Below, piece by piece: positions 10,146-16,312 of a stretch of DNA of 64,000 nt (positions within the stretch are counted from its first letter, which is position 1; each line of letters opens with the position of its first letter). The DNA is taken from the NCBI RefSeq assembly GCF_019375555.1, contig NZ_JAHXDN010000002.1, positions 496,001-560,000 on the forward strand, written 5' to 3'. The stretch comes from Roseobacter insulae. Its GTDB lineage: Bacteria; Pseudomonadota; Alphaproteobacteria; Rhodobacterales; Rhodobacteraceae. A program made the translations under genes and the position numbers. The notes under the pieces are model-generated. The model ran no database searches and was not told the DNA's origin. It was given only the letters and a program-made list of their open reading frames with translations.

Positions 10146-11936
10146 TCAGATCGGCGCAGTCGCAGCATCCAACCACGTTTTCGCACCGGGCGATAGGCGG
10201 GGCGCAATCTTTTCTGCAACTTCAGCGTGATAGGCATTAAGCCAGTCGCGTTCCACCGCCGTCAGCATCCCGGTGACGATAAGGCGCCTGTCGATGGGCG
10301 CGAAGGTCAGGGTGCGCCAGTGCAACATCTTGCGATGAGCATCACCGCCGGGCAGGGCCGGGGCCTCCTGCACGACAATAAGGTTTTCAAGGCGGATGCC
10401 AAACGCGCCTTCCCGGTAGTACCCCGGCTCGTTGGACAGGATCATCCCCGCTTCCAACGGCACATGGCTGATCCTGCTCAGCCTTTGCGGCCCTTCGTGC
10501 ACACTGAGATAAGCCCCGACGCCGTGGCCCAGACCATGGTCGAAATCCTGCCCCGCAAGCCATAGCGGCATCCGCCCGATCGCCTCGATGTCGCGCCCGG
10601 CCAGACCTTCGGGCCAGCGCAGACGGCTCATCGCGATCATTCCCTGCAGCACACGGGTAAAAGCTTCTGCAGCCTCCCGGGGCGGCAACCCGATGGCGAT
10701 CGTCCGGGTGATATCGGTCGTGCCGTCAAGATACTGACCACCGCTGTCCAGCACGATCAACTGACCCTCTTCCAACAGGCTGTCGGTCTCTTCAGTCACC
10801 CGGTAGTGCATGATCGCGCCGTTGGGTCCGGTGCCTGCAATGGTTTCAAAACTGATGTCCTGAAGCGCGTTGTCGTTGCGTCGAAACCCCTCGAGCTTGC
10901 CGACGACCTGCGTCTCGCGCAACGCGCCTGCGGGCTGTGCATCGAGCCAGGCCAGCATTTCGACGATCGCCGCCCCGTCGCGCAGATGCGCGGCGGCTGC
11001 GCCTTCGATCTCGGCACTGTTTTTGCGCGCCTTGGGCAGGGCGCAGGGATCACCGGCATAGGCGGCACGGTCCCCCAGCAGCCGCGACAGCACAACCGGA
11101 ACGGTGCCCTTGTCGACACGGACTGACCCTTTCAACCCGTCCAGAAACGGCACCAGCGCCTGCGGATCATGCTGTGTCACCTCCGCGCCAAGATGGTCGG
11201 CAACCTCATGCAGTTTCCCGGCCGCCATGAACAGATCAACCGCGCCGGTGTCATGCAAAACAGCAAAGCCCTGGGCAATGGGGTTGCGCGGGATATCCGC
11301 GCCGCGAATGTTCAGCAGCCAGCACAGCGAATCCGGTAGGGTGATCAGCGCCGCGTTCTGGCCGTCATCGCAGAGCTCCCGCGCCATCCGCTGGCGCTTG
11401 TCAGCATGGCTTTCGCCCGCAAACTCCAAAGGGTGCACCTTGGCGGGCTGCACCGGCGGCGCCGGCTGATCCTGCCAGATCTGATCGACCGGATTATCAC
11501 AGGCGCGCAAATCGACGCCGGTGCCTTTGAGGGTCTTCTCCAGCGTCTCGATCTGCCCCGCGCTGTGCAGCCACGGGTCGAAGCCGACAACGCCGCCCTG
11601 CGGCAATTGCTCCGTCAGCCAGTCGCCTAATGAAACATCGGGCCAGGGCACGGGTGTGAACTCTTCGGCGACCTGCGCCTTGACCTGTGTGCGATAACGT
11701 CCGTCGATGAAAACCCCTGCAATGTCGTGAAGTACCGCGCAGAATCCCGCAGAGCCTGTGAACCCCGTCAGCCAGGCTAGACGCTCGTCATGTGCCGCAA
11801 CATATTCCCCCTGGTGGGCATCGGCACGGGGGACCAGAAAGCCATCCAGACCCCCGGCCTTCATCGCGTCGCGCAGCGCGGCAAGCCTTGGCGGTCCCTG
11901 TTCCGGCCGAGCCGTCACCTCGAAGGTCTGAAACAT
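10146..11936 (-). CDS. pepP: Xaa-Pro aminopeptidase (aminopeptidase P family, M24B)
   Basis: This is a metallopeptidase that removes an N-terminal residue from peptides with proline in the second position. The 596-residue length fits the long (eukaryote-like, XPNPEP1-type) version with two N-terminal creatinase-like domains followed by the pita-bread catalytic domain. Metal ligands are visible in the catalytic domain: Asp in VLDSGGQYLDGTTDITRT (two aspartates), His in GHGVGAYLSVHEGPQ, and glutamates in LSNEPGYY and IRLENL. It lies 54 bases downstream of cobT on the same strand and could be co-transcribed, but shares no obvious function with it. Confidence 0.92.
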   Translation of the reverse strand: MFQTFEVTARPEQGPPRLAALRDAMKAGGLDGFLVPRADAHQGEYVAAHDERLAWLTGFTGSAGFCAVLHDIAGVFIDGRYRTQVKAQVAEEFTPVPWPDVSLGDWLTEQLPQGGVVGFDPWLHSAGQIETLEKTLKGTGVDLRACDNPVDQIWQDQPAPPVQPAKVHPLEFAGESHADKRQRMARELCDDGQNAALITLPDSLCWLLNIRGADIPRNPIAQGFAVLHDTGAVDLFMAAGKLHEVADHLGAEVTQHDPQALVPFLDGLKGSVRVDKGTVPVVLSRLLGDRAAYAGDPCALPKARKNSAEIEGAAAAHLRDGAAIVEMLAWLDAQPAGALRETQVVGKLEGFRRNDNALQDISFETIAGTGPNGAIMHYRVTEETDSLLEEGQLIVLDSGGQYLDGTTDITRTIAIGLPPREAAEAFTRVLQGMIAMSRLRWPEGLAGRDIEAIGRMPLWLAGQDFDHGLGHGVGAYLSVHEGPQRLSRISHVPLEAGMILSNEPGYYREGAFGIRLENLIVVQEAPALPGGDAHRKMLHWRTLTFAPIDRRLIVTGMLTAVERDWLNAYHAEVAEKIAPRLSPGAKTWLDAATAPI

Positions 11937-11981: not shown

Positions 11982-12003
11982 ACGGGCCAGTTAACTGGCC
12001 CGT
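11982..12003. repeat. Perfect 22-bp palindrome at the cobT stop codon
   Basis: The 22 bases form a perfect palindrome: 11-bp arms, centre GTTAAC. The cobT stop codon (TAA on the minus strand) lies in it. On the plus strand it is followed by TTTTAT, on the minus strand by GCCTCC, so it is not a classical terminator for cobT. As RNA it would form an 11-bp stem with a tight turn and could protect the cobT transcript end or attenuate reading into pepP. A shorter related palindrome (CAGTTAACTG) covers the stop codon of the gene at 19328-20602. Confidence 0.7.
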
Positions 12004-13868
12004 TTTATGCCCATGATGCGGGCGCGGGCGCGCGGGTCGCTGTCGAAAAGGGCTGCCAGCTGCTCTGTCATCGCGCCGGCCAGCTGATCCACATCCGTGA
12101 TCGTCACCGCGCGGTCGTAGTACCGCGTCACATCATGCCCGATCCCGATGGCCAGCAGTTCGACGGCGCGGCGTTTTTCCACCATCTCGATTACGTCACG
12201 CAGGTGTTTTTCGAGGTAATTGGCAGGGTTGACCGACAGGGTGCTGTCATCCACCGGCGCCCCGTCCGAGATCACCATCAGGATCTTGCGGACCTCGTGC
12301 CGCATCAGCATCCGGCGGTGTGCCCATTCCAGCGCCTCGCCATCGATGTTTTCCTTCAGCAAGCCTTCTTTCATCATCAAACCGAGGTTTGGCCGCGTGC
12401 GCCGCCAAGGTGCATCCGCGGATTTATAGATGATGTGCCGCAGGTCGTTCAGACGCCCCGGCTGCTGTGGCCGCCCGTCGTTCAGCCAGGCTTCGCGTGC
12501 CTGACCGCCTTTCCAGGCGCGCGTGGTGAAGCCCAGAATTTCGACCTTCACATTGCAGCGCTCCAGCGTCCGCGCCAATACATCCGCGCAGATGGCCGCG
12601 ATGGAGATCGGGCGCCCGCGCATCGACCCGGAGTTGTCGAGCAGCAGCGTCACGACCGTATCGCGGAAATCAGTGTCCTTCTCCACTTTGAACGACAGGG
12701 GCGTCGTCGGGTTGGCCACCACCCGCGCCAGACGTCCGGCATCCAGCATGCCCTCTTCCAGATCAAATTCCCAGGAGCGGTTCTGCTGTGCCTGCAACCG
12801 GCGTTGCAACTTGTTGGCCAATCGGCTCACGGCGCCTTTCAAAGGCTCCAACTGCTGATCGAGATAGGCCCGCAGCCGTTCCAACTCGACGGGCTCGGCA
12901 AGCTCTTCGGCTCCGATCTCTTCATCATGGTCATTCAGGTACACAAGGTAATTCGGGTCCGCATCCGATGCAGGGGGCGGGGCAGGCGGCTCCATCGGGG
13001 CCTCCCCCTCTGGCATGTCCGCCTCATCGCCCATTTCCTGATCGGCCATGTCATCCATGGAGACCTGCGCCTGCGCCGCGTCCTGTTGCTCCTCCTGGGA
13101 TTGCTCGGGCGAGCCTTCGGACTCTTCGTCTTCCTGATCGTCTTGACCTGTGCTGTCGGGATCGGAATCCTCTTCGGCCCCTTCTTCGGCTTCGTCTTCC
13201 TGATCCTCGTCGATCTGGTCCGGGTCGTCGCCCAGCTGGTCACCATATCCAAGATCGCAGATCAGCTGCCGCGCGAACTTGGCAAAGGCCGCCTGATCGC
13301 TGAGCGTGTCATCGAGGTTTTCCAGCGTGCCGCCGCATTGGTCTTCGATAAAACCGCGCCACAGCTCCATCACGTTCTGCGCGCCCGACGGCAGATCGCG
13401 CCCGGTCGCCAGATGCCGGATCAGATAGCCCGCAGCCGTTGCCAGCGGGGCATCGGCGGCCTGCGTGATCTGATCGTACCCTTTGCGCATCGCCTCATGG
13501 GCGATCTTGGCGTCGATATTTCCCGCCGTTCCGGGCATGTCGCGGGCACCCATCGCCTCGCAGCGGGCGGTTTCCATAGCTTCATACAGGTCTTTGGCCA
13601 TGTCCCCTTGTGGCTGATAGCGGGCATGGGTCTGGCCGTTGTGGTAGCGCCGGTTCAGCGCCAAAGCATCCGCGGTGCCCCGCGCCAGCATCACCTCGTC
13701 GCGTGTCATGCGGCGACTGACCTGCGGCAATCGCATGGAATCGCCCGACATACCTGCAGGATCCACAGAGTAGGAGACGGTCAGCTCCGGGTCATGCGCC
13801 ATGACCTTTGTGGCCTCCGACAGCGCTTTTTTGAACGCATCGGCCGGATTGTCTGACTGTTTGCTCAT
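11991..13868 (-). CDS. cobT: Cobaltochelatase subunit CobT
   Basis: CobT is the von Willebrand factor A subunit of the aerobic cobaltochelatase (CobNST), which inserts cobalt into hydrogenobyrinic acid a,c-diamide during cobalamin synthesis. The 625-residue protein has an N-terminal helical part and a very acidic Glu/Asp/Gln-rich stretch around residues 210-300. A C-terminal VWA domain carries the MIDAS motif DNSGSMRG near residue 410, which binds Mg2+. CobT works with the AAA+ subunit CobS, encoded just upstream. The large CobN subunit is not in the window. The start is 3 bases after the stop of the racemase-like gene, so the genes form one transcript. Confidence 0.95.
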
Positions 13869-13871
13869 AGC

Positions 13872-14570
13872 TTAGCCCTTCGTCCCCTGCGGCAAGGTCG
13901 CCCTGCCCGTGGCCAGATCGGCCAGCAGCGCAACATGTACATCCAATGCGTCGATCACTTTATAGCCGGGATCATGCCCGTCAAATGCCAGTCCCAGATC
14001 GGTCCCGGCGAGCACGATTGCATCGGCCCCCTGATCGGCGGTCATCCGGTGTCCGGCCTCGAAGAAAAAGGCGCGATCCGCATCCGTCGCAGCACCCCTG
14101 ACAGCCATCTCCAGATAGGTTTTGCCGACGTCCTGCAGATTGCCCTCCGGCGCCACCGCGCGGGTGTGGGGCAATTGCCCGTAAAGCCGCGTGCGCATCA
14201 CGACCTCTGTTCCCAGAAGCCCGACGGTTCCCAGACCCTGCGCCACGAAATACGCATCAAGCGGTGTCACTCCGCTGACCAGGGGCAGGGGGCTGATGGC
14301 TTCCGTTTCGGGATAGCAGAAATGCCCCCCCAGCGAGGTGATCGCGGCGCACTCGGCTCCTGCTGCTTTCAGCCGGCCAATAAGATCTGCGTAAATCTCC
14401 GCCTGTGCATTGCGATTATCCGCCAGATTATTGGCGATGAGTTCATCGGCGCTCGCCTGCACAATCGTCAGGTCCAGCTTCTTGCCGCGCTCCCGCATCA
14501 GGGCCGTCAGCCGCTGATAGTAAACCACCGTGGCTGCCGGGCCGATGCCTCCGATCAACCCGATGTGCAT
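13872..14570 (-). CDS. Aspartate/glutamate racemase-superfamily protein lacking both catalytic cysteines
   Basis: The 232-residue protein opens with MHIGLIGGIGPAATVVYYQR, the standard start of Asp/Glu racemases, and keeps the two-lobe fold pattern. Family enzymes use two cysteines as acid/base pair, in motifs like PCNTAH and GCTE. Here the first motif region reads ITSLGGHF (Ser at the Cys position) and the second reads LAGTDLG (Gly at the Cys position). Classical racemase activity is therefore unlikely. It sits exactly between cobS and cobT, with 3-base gaps on both sides, so it is co-expressed with the cobaltochelatase genes. Function unknown. It could be a decayed racemase, a hydrolase or decarboxylase variant, or a binding protein. 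Confidence 0.85.
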   Translation of the reverse strand: MHIGLIGGIGPAATVVYYQRLTALMRERGKKLDLTIVQASADELIANNLADNRNAQAEIYADLIGRLKAAGAECAAITSLGGHFCYPETEAISPLPLVSGVTPLDAYFVAQGLGTVGLLGTEVVMRTRLYGQLPHTRAVAPEGNLQDVGKTYLEMAVRGAATDADRAFFFEAGHRMTADQGADAIVLAGTDLGLAFDGHDPGYKVIDALDVHVALLADLATGRATLPQGTKG

Positions 14571-14573
14571 GGC

Positions 14574-15560
14574 TTATCCTAAACTCACGCTGGCGGCACT
14601 TTCCGGCAGCTCCTCGTCAAAGAGACGCTGATAGAATTCTGCCACGGTCTGGCGTTCCAGCTCGTCACATTTGTTGAGAAAGCTGAGGCGGAAAGCATAG
14701 CCGACATTGCGAAAAATCTCGGCGTTCTGCGCCCAGGCGATCACCGTGCGCGGCGACATCACCGTGCTGAGATCGCCGTTCATGAAAGCGGTGCGCGTCA
14801 GGTCGGCCACGGTGACCATCTGCTTGACGATCTTGCGGCCTTTTTCGGTGTTGTAATGCGGGTTTTTCGACAGGACGATCGCGGTCTCCGCGTCGATGCT
14901 GAGGTAATTCAGCGTGGCCACCAGCGACCACCGGTCCATCTGGCCCTGGTTGATCTGCTGGGTGCCGTGGTACAGGCCCGTGGTGTCGCCCAGACCCACC
15001 GTGTTGGCGGTGGAGAAGATGCGGAAGTAGGGGTGCGGCGTGATCACCTGGTTCTGATCCAGCAGCGTGAGCTTGCCGTCCACTTCCAGCACGCGCTGAA
15101 TGACGAACATCACATCGGCCCGGCCCGCATCATACTCGTCAAAGACGATCGCGGTGGGGTTTCGCAATGCCCATGGCAGGATACCCTCCTGGAAATCGGT
15201 GACCTGTTTGCCATCTTTCAGCTTGATCGCATCCTTGCCGATCAGATCGATGCGGCTGATGTGGCTGTCAAGGTTCACGCGCACGGCAGGCCAGTTCAGT
15301 CGGCTGGCAACCTGTTCGATATGGGTGGATTTACCCGTGCCGTGATAGCCCTGGATCATCACGCGCCGGTTGTGTGCAAAGCCCGCCAGAATGGCCAGCG
15401 TCGTGTCCGGGTCAAACTTATACGTGGTGTCCAGATCAGGCACGCGGTCGCTGCGGTCCGCAAACCCTTTGACTACCATATCGCTATCAATGCCAAAGAC
15501 GTCGCGAACGTGGATCTCTTCGGTGGGCTTCGTGTTGATGTCCAGTGCGCCGTCGGCCAT
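14574..15560 (-). CDS. cobS: Cobaltochelatase AAA+ ATPase subunit CobS
   Basis: CobS is the AAA+ ATPase of the CobNST cobaltochelatase, powering cobalt insertion into the corrin ring. The 328-residue protein has Walker [10 protein letters not shown] at residues 71-79, Walker B IVFDEYD near 145, and the AAA+ arginine region after it. The N-terminal ~20 residues carry the [10 protein letters not shown] segment typical of CobS. It is the first cob gene of the minus-strand run cobS, racemase-like gene, cobT. The dnaJ-like gene lies 125 bases upstream on the same strand. Confidence 0.96.
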
Positions 15561-15685: not shown

Positions 15686-16312
15686 TCAATCCTTGAAGTT
15701 GCGGCTGCCCTTGATCTGATCCCAGGCCCAGACGACCTCCTGCAACTGCTCTTCCTGGCTGCGGTCGCCGCCGTTCATGTCAGGATGCAGCACCTTGATC
15801 AGCGCCTTGTAAGCCTTGCGCACCTCGGGCTTGGTCCAGGTGTCTTTGGCGTCCAGTATCTCGATCGCGCGGCGCTCGGTCGGTGGCAGGCGCCGTCCTG
15901 CCTGTGGCCCGCGCCCGGGGTTCTGCGTTGCGTTTGCACCAAGCACCTGATGCGGGTCTTCGATACCCAGCCGCGCCCAGGCCCGCGCCTCCGGATCACC
16001 CATCGGCTTGGTGTTGCGTTCCCACACCTTGTCTTTCGACATCTGCGCGTTCAGTTCCGCCTCGGTGGTGCCGTCAAAGAAATTCCACTTCAGATTATAT
16101 TCCCGCACATGCGCCTGGCAGAACCAGAAAAAATCATCCAGCACGTCCGGTGCCTTGGGCGCACGATACTTGCCGGGTTCCTCGCAGCCATCGTGATCAC
16201 AGACGCGGGTCGAGGTCTCCGACGCGCCGGACATACCACGCCGTCCACGCGGGTTTTTCTTCTTGGAAGAAGAGACAGACATATCGAATCCAAATGGATC
16301 TGGCTTTGGCAT
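15686..16312 (-). CDS. DnaJ-domain protein with N-terminal Cys/His-containing region
   Basis: The 208-residue protein has a C-terminal J domain (about residues 140-205) with the HPD tripeptide at 176-178, which stimulates the ATPase of an Hsp70 partner. The N-terminal half contains CDHDGCEEPG and WFCQAHVREYN, a possible small zinc-binding region (two Cys close together, then Cys and His). There is no Gly/Phe region or standard DnaJ zinc finger, so it is a specialised J protein and not the general DnaJ. Start ATG 16312 is preceded by AGGTG. It is divergent from bolA and upstream of cobS, as is common in this group. Confidence 0.88.
   Translation of the reverse strand: MPKPDPFGFDMSVSSSKKKNPRGRRGMSGASETSTRVCDHDGCEEPGKYRAPKAPDVLDDFFWFCQAHVREYNLKWNFFDGTTEAELNAQMSKDKVWERNTKPMGDPEARAWARLGIEDPHQVLGANATQNPGRGPQAGRRLPPTERRAIEILDAKDTWTKPEVRKAYKALIKVLHPDMNGGDRSQEEQLQEVVWAWDQIKGSRNFKD

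Follow-up and report, generated by a model that had tools for sequence, protein, structure and literature searches.

The window analysed here, a stretch of 64,000 nucleotides of the Roseobacter insulae genome (contig NZ_JAHXDN010000002.1 of assembly GCF_019375555.1), carries an ATG-initiated gene for a protein of 232 amino acids (RAC; 13872..14570) between two genes of the cobaltochelatase, and all genes named in this paragraph lie on the reverse strand. The upstream neighbour cobS (14574..15560) encodes the AAA+ subunit (TIGR01650, 587.3 bits, cut-off 558.55), and the downstream neighbour cobT (11991..13868) the VWA subunit (TIGR01651, 807.2 bits, cut-off 759.05). The original prediction had placed RAC between the two ATPase-side subunits of this enzyme; the profile matches bear out the identity of both, CobS being an AAA+ protein, but CobT has a VWA domain by Pfam and is presumably the partner of the ATPase and itself no ATPase. 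Further out, a DnaJ-domain protein (15686..16312, by profile scan) is encoded upstream of cobS and an Xaa-Pro aminopeptidase-like protein (10146..11936, named by eye from its open reading frame) downstream of cobT, and these families account for 62 and 70 gene calls, respectively, in 80 named loci (the best 80 of at least 493 relatives). The cobS stop codon lies 3 bases before RAC and the cobT start codon 3 bases after it, so that the predicted 3-base gaps on both sides are confirmed by the coordinates. Within the final codons of cobS, an AGGA precedes the ATG of RAC, and a GAAGGG within the final codons of RAC precedes that of cobT. Scans for promoters (3 promoter-like sites vs. a mean of 1.9 in shuffled sequences) and terminators (4 terminator-like sites vs. 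5.4) were uninformative.

RAC falls into the Asp/Glu racemase fold family by its match to Pfam PF01177 (70.4 bits, cut-off 31). None of the NCBIfam racemase models matched RAC at its cut-off: the two best-scoring ones, for the cysteate racemase CuyB (NF052483, 65.3 bits, equivalog cut-off 190) and for amino acid racemases (TIGR00035, 51.5 bits, cut-off 93.1), remained far under their thresholds, as did the aspartate/glutamate racemase YgeA equivalog (NF007569, 38.3 bits, cut-off 417). An AlphaFold2 model built with 81 sequences (pLDDT 91.5, pTM 0.87) had its best row in the structural comparison with the Asp/Glu racemase 5hra_A (Z 29.5, 1.8 Å over 224 residues), and Foldseek ranked 2zsk first; the assignment of the predicted structure to this fold is secure. 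In the window's own genome, there are seven PF01177 matches (L001-L007), the RAC gene included. Five of them were counted as exceeding the cut-off of the family, although one did so only jointly with its in-frame neighbours.

The motifs ITSLGGHF (residues 77-84) and LAGTDLG (residues 187-193) correspond to the two catalytic-cysteine motifs of the racemases. AITSLGGHFC of the window aligns without gaps with VICTNTMHKV of the EcL-DER-type relative L181 (L182 and L183 are alike), and IVLAGTDL with VILGCTEI of the EcL-DER-type relatives, so that Ser79 (14334..14336, reverse strand) stands where catalytic Cys 1 would be (Thr83 in EcL-DER) and Gly189 (14004..14006, reverse strand) where Cys 2 would be. 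RAC thus has neither Cys 1 of the CNTxH motif nor Cys 2 of GCTE, the two residues that define a two-cysteine Asp/Glu racemase, and the predicted combination of a racemase fold with Ser and Gly at the catalytic sites is upheld. The motif histidine is retained as His83 (14322..14324, reverse strand). Two features of the first motif had gone unmentioned in the original prediction, namely the replacement of the Asn-Thr after Cys 1 by Leu80-Gly81 and a new cysteine, Cys85 (14316..14318, reverse strand), two residues past the histidine (GGHFC) at a position that is Val in the EcL-DER-type relatives. In the second motif, Asp191 (13998..14000, reverse strand) takes the place of the Glu of the canonical GCTE.

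Conservation of these residues was assessed in two partly overlapping alignments. A sample of 295 genomes of the window's family contained 52 strong RAC matches in 51 genomes, the window's own included, with identities of 39-71% apart from the window protein itself, while the next-best matches in these 295 genomes reached 32% or less. The first alignment comprises 52 rows of such family-sample members (L077, with 24% identity, was dropped beforehand, and L076 gave no match in the locus survey), and the second comprises 81 rows, the window protein and the 80 named loci, which, being the best 80 of at least 493 relatives, are nearer relatives. Neither catalytic cysteine was kept by any member of the two alignments. 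The Cys 1 site is occupied by Ser (n = 44), Ala (n = 7), or Leu (n = 1) in the 52-row alignment and by Ser throughout the 81 rows; Cys85, Thr78, Asp191, and Gly189 are each invariant in the former (52/52), where His83 is found in 48 rows and Arg166 and Thr190 in 49 each, and Gly189, Cys85, His83, and Asp191 are each invariant in the latter (81/81). More broadly, the conserved stretches (GGIG, TSLGGHFC, LLGT, LAGTDL, DALDVH, and Arg166) are predicted to surround the cleft. The double substitution, for which the original prediction had suggested a conservation test, is therefore conserved. Neither of the findings named there as pointing to simple decay was encountered in the two alignments: no homologue at this locus retains both cysteines, and the substitutions are not scattered and unconserved.

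All 14 members found in other families of the Alphaproteobacteria have Cys85 as well. It lies six residues past Ser79 as the sixth residue of a helix predicted by AlphaFold2 (residues 80-92), and because the periodicity of this helix would direct its side chain elsewhere than that of the canonical cysteine, we do not claim a catalytic role for it; Cys85 may be purely structural and need not face the cleft. The distant relatives L174-L176 lack both catalytic cysteines and have Cys, Ala, and Ala, respectively, at the Cys85 position. A further gene (L231:5277-5957, forward strand), with the motifs TSNTSH and LGGTEI, has Ser and Gly at the catalytic sites but retains Asn-Thr, and its motifs thus make it a doubly Cys-less relative of another kind. 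Loss of both cysteines therefore extends beyond the RAC group, whose hallmark at the sequence level is Cys85 together with the lost Asn-Thr.

Outside its own family, the RAC group was found in 14 of 385 genomes of a class sample. A phylum sample of 398 genomes gave, at E <= 1e-25, matches in 11 genomes from outside the class, with at best 104 bits, compared to 220 bits or more for the RAC group members in that listing; the three of these 11 that were inspected (L181-L183) have EcL-DER-type motifs. Three stretches of viral contigs matched a pattern, none of them encoding a relative. Copies sharing about 65-69% identity with the window protein were recovered from Gemmatimonadaceae- and Anaeromyxobacter-labelled assemblies and one same-family genome (L229:6001-6702, reverse strand; L147:6001-6684; L112:2967-3668; L116:1723-2409), where their neighbours are unlike; this suggests a transfer of RAC between phyla. 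RAC was present in only one of 24 genomes of the family of the Anaeromyxobacter MAG, and a search of the Gemmatimonadaceae yielded matches in 4 of 148 genomes (E <= 1e-35), including the distant L231 and a copy split into two frames (L230:1298-1968), which may reflect real decay or an assembly error.

Among carriers of RAC, the order cobS-RAC-cobT is the commonest arrangement, in line with the original prediction. In the 52 family members, for which flanks of either 1.5 kb or about 5 kb were available, cobS lies upstream and cobT downstream of RAC in 35, only cobS is found in four, and neither in 13; the corresponding numbers in the named loci, the best 80 of at least 493 relatives, are 67 with both genes, five with cobT only, one with cobS only, and seven with neither. 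In genome G034 (L066), which belongs to the four family members with cobS alone, RAC lies near cobS, and cobT is located ~141 kb away on the same contig. Spacing is often tight: within the named set (best 80 of at least 493), cobS and RAC are separated by no more than 40 bases in 46 of 68 placed loci and RAC and cobT in 45 of 72, with an exact 4-base overlap at 26 of these 72 junctions. These tight gaps and overlaps fit the proposed production of RAC in step with its neighbours, and co-translation with cobS and cobT is well supported as a prediction from gene anatomy.

The same interval is also used by other genes. We surveyed 40 RAC-less genomes picked from 120 well-assembled genomes of the family and found a cobS-cobT gap of at most 150 bases in seven and of more than 150 bases in 26, with cobS not found within about 4.5 kb in the remaining seven. 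A simple caller placed open reading frames (ORFs) in 24 of the 26 wide gaps, some of which resemble FMN reductases and one a PALP enzyme in their first residues, compared to scanned families. By its gene content, the cobS-cobT gap is an insertion site. In the Rhodobacteraceae (the RAC-less relatives L184-L223, and L078-L157), spacer ORFs are of many kinds and include FMN reductases and a PLP-dependent PALP enzyme and, judged by eye, small secreted-looking proteins as well as a LysR-type and a transposase-like ORF.

Conversely, RAC occurs away from cob genes. Thirteen of the 52 family members have neither gene in the interval retrieved around RAC, and their neighbours differ (names by eye); none of the 14 members outside the family has cobS or cobT within 1.5 kb. 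The seven named loci without an adjacent cob gene (among the best 80 of at least 493 relatives) all derive from MAGs, labelled Chloroflexi, Holophagaceae, Anaeromyxobacter, Gemmatimonadaceae (n = 2), Alphaproteobacteria, and Gammaproteobacteria, and again have differing neighbours. A position beside cobS or cobT, as would mark an accessory factor, is therefore not shared by the group as a whole. A CobT match is present in the alphaproteobacterial MAG and absent in the other six, although MAG completeness is not stated and binning errors of short contigs are possible. A genome that shares its family with one Gemmatimonadaceae MAG carries RAC on a 184-kb contig with unlike neighbours; in this and four more genomes, CobT_C (PF11775) exceeded its cut-off in none of the five (weak matches in four). 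CobN (TIGR02257) did so in none of eight genomes, and the sub-threshold matches in two MAG-family genomes, reaching 590 bits, may represent a related chelatase subunit. In a quick tree of 72 rows (29 of 69 inner branches open; the short L173 was left out and the L076 and L077 sequences were not recovered), L160 and L161, two of the 14 members outside the family and without cob neighbours, are placed in a 37-row clade that is well supported and has 31 of its rows beside cobS; by this placement, their RAC genes are moved or transferred copies retained without cob neighbours. The label "beside cobS" requires five changes on this tree, two of them forced by well-supported branches, so that it is uncertain how often RAC entered the site.

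With both catalytic residues gone and a median pairwise distance of 0.34, compared to 0.12 for CobS and 0.20 for CobT (named loci, best 80 of at least 493 relatives), RAC could at first sight be a former racemase in decay. This is highly improbable: the loss of both cysteines is accompanied by the same new cysteine in every row of both alignments, the frames are open at 225-238 amino acids in all 80 named loci (best 80 of at least 493), the split copy having come from the Gemmatimonadaceae search, and dN/dS of the window gene against eight near relatives from that set is 0.09-0.20, a rough estimate given dS values of 0.8-1.8. Two close RAC pairs (dS 0.14) gave dN/dS values of 0.14 and 0.19, and these ratios establish purifying selection at the level of sequence comparison. 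We exclude decay because of this selection and the conservation of the motifs, and of the passenger gene with lost activity that the original prediction had offered as its alternative, the passenger survives, with a function of its own, as the best reading, and the lost function does not. Alternatively, RAC may have remained an isomerase or racemase that employs other acid/base groups (Thr78, Ser79, His83, Cys85, or Asp191), an option that the conserved fold and active-site loops would accommodate but that we consider unlikely. The Asp/Glu racemase fold also houses non-racemase chemistry, as in the arylmalonate decarboxylase and maleate isomerase branches, which share the fold of RAC at lower similarity (Z about 14). 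To our knowledge, these branches retain at least one catalytic cysteine, and RAC has neither. EcL-DER (YgeA), an L-Asp/Glu-specific racemase (PDB 5hra, 5ell, 5elm), has the same fold, and relatives of its type share with RAC the N-terminal GG loop, the LLGT loop, the motif His, the arginine at position 166, and an Asp and a His close to the C-terminus; they differ in the Glu replaced by Asp in RAC, in lacking Cys85, and in the Asn-Thr after the first site, the catalytic pair being Thr83/Cys197 in EcL-DER (PMC12838360) and Ser79/Gly189 in RAC. Replacement of Cys 1 is tolerated in EcL-DER, by Thr83, and in RacX, by Ala79 (PMC12838360). PH1733 (PDB 2zsk), an aspartate racemase homologue and also the top phmmer match of RAC, has Ala at Cys 1 and is described as inactive with Asp and Glu (PMC12838360); it keeps the second-site cysteine (LGCTEL) and Asn-Thr, both of which RAC lacks. 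As for Cys 2, racemase activity is reported as absent in EcL-DER C197S and as markedly reduced, not as abolished, in RacX C193S (PMC12838360), and a second study gives at most 0.3% activity for OpaE C90S/C199S (PMC12661438). The RacX variant leaves some room for an alternative base, but Cys 2 is Gly throughout both alignments, the larger of which holds the window and the best 80 of at least 493 relatives, and Asn-Thr is lost too.

The position of RAC invites another explanation, namely that it works for the CobNST chelatase or in the corrinoid pathway, perhaps as a helper that binds cobalt or a corrinoid and is produced in stoichiometric amounts with CobS and CobT. The prevailing gene order, the short or overlapping junctions with cobT, the combination of an invariant cysteine and a nearly invariant histidine in one motif, and G034, which keeps RAC beside cobS though cobT lies elsewhere, are all consistent with such a role. 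CobT was also found in 29 of 30 RAC carriers tested, including all 27 with a completeness of 90% or more and a contamination of 5% or less; three of the 30 have no relatives other than the distant L174-L176, and in one (G082) there is also a copy at cobST. This co-occurrence says little because the CobT baseline is high (251 of 315 genomes of the class at E <= 1e-100 and 119 of 120 of the family), and it was dropped as support for a linkage. Against the helper role stand the members with differing neighbours away from cob genes, the close MAG copies without a CobT match (soft absences) together with the sub-threshold CobT_C matches, and the filling of the same cobS-cobT gap by other ORFs, as well as the absence of a RAC orthologue from 101 of the 120 well-assembled family genomes, all but one of which have CobT. 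Furthermore, pairwise distances of RAC correlate poorly with those of CobS and CobT (rho 0.11 and -0.04, respectively, in 24 family-sample loci; 0.22 and 0.17 in 66 named loci, from the best 80 of at least 493), compared to rho values between CobS and CobT of 0.52 and 0.63 in the two sets and 0.52-0.72 overall. For the 58 named loci with flanking genes (from the same best 80 of at least 493), RAC gave 0.12-0.22 and the other four genes mutually 0.54-0.84. This contrast is supportive only, since RAC evolves faster, the named set is of restricted range, and the closest pairs agree. Taken together, we regard service to the chelatase as quite improbable; of the non-racemase role linked to cobalamin synthesis or the chelatase that had been proposed originally, the non-racemase part is likely, and the link, though possible, is not favoured in view of the copies away from the locus, the MAGs without a CobT match, the gap ORFs, and the low correlations.

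We therefore favour, as the reading with somewhat better than even prospects, that RAC is an enzyme other than a racemase, or a binding protein, that its active site has been rebuilt, and that it is an independent tenant of the cobST unit; its function is probably other than racemisation and independent of the chelatase. By its motifs, RAC belongs to a coherent orthologous group within the Asp/Glu racemase fold in which 1,1-proton transfer by two thiols has been given up. Because the loops around the cleft are the conserved parts of the protein, we infer that a small ligand, probably one bearing a carboxylate, still binds in the cleft that separates the two pseudo-symmetric domains; such a ligand is plausible as Arg166 and Thr190 would be available for an anion. 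The chemistry, if any, would differ from two-base racemisation and could be that of an isomerase with a single base, of a lyase, or of the hydrolase type, or RAC could serve in pure binding or ligand sensing, with Thr78, Ser79, His83, and Asp191, and perhaps Cys85, as candidate working residues. In the Rhodobacteraceae, RAC would have arrived in the cobS-cobT spacer at an early stage, in a single event or in a few, and its retention there is best explained by lock-in rather than by service to the chelatase: as its start codon and its stop codon are tied to cobS and cobT through overlaps or gaps of a few bases, loss or movement of RAC would put the chelatase genes at risk. It is possible, though doubtful, that the cleft was rebuilt around a relocated His83-x-Cys85 pair together with Thr78 and Asp191 for a reaction new to the superfamily, and that this form spread horizontally among Alphaproteobacteria and other phyla (Gemmatimonadota, Myxococcota).

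The new element is the conserved doubly Cys-less group with its new invariant cysteine, rather than the locus. We found no description of the RAC gene or of a doubly Cys-less Asp/Glu racemase homologue in the literature searched, whose coverage excluded most subscription journals. Annotation by PF01177 alone yields "Asp/Glu racemase", a name that is doubtful given the missing cysteines and that concerns 51 of the 295 sampled family genomes. The group also offers a test of what else the racemase fold can do, and the locus cautions against inferring a cobalamin function from position, as the cobS-cobT spacer of the Rhodobacteraceae admits other ORFs. In five named loci (L090, L105, L108, L118, and L134), a PLP enzyme of the PALP family (PF00291, scanned in L134) is encoded between RAC and cobT, and the RAC-less L192 has a similar, PALP-like ORF (by eye) between cobS and cobT; a link to amino acid metabolism is conceivable.
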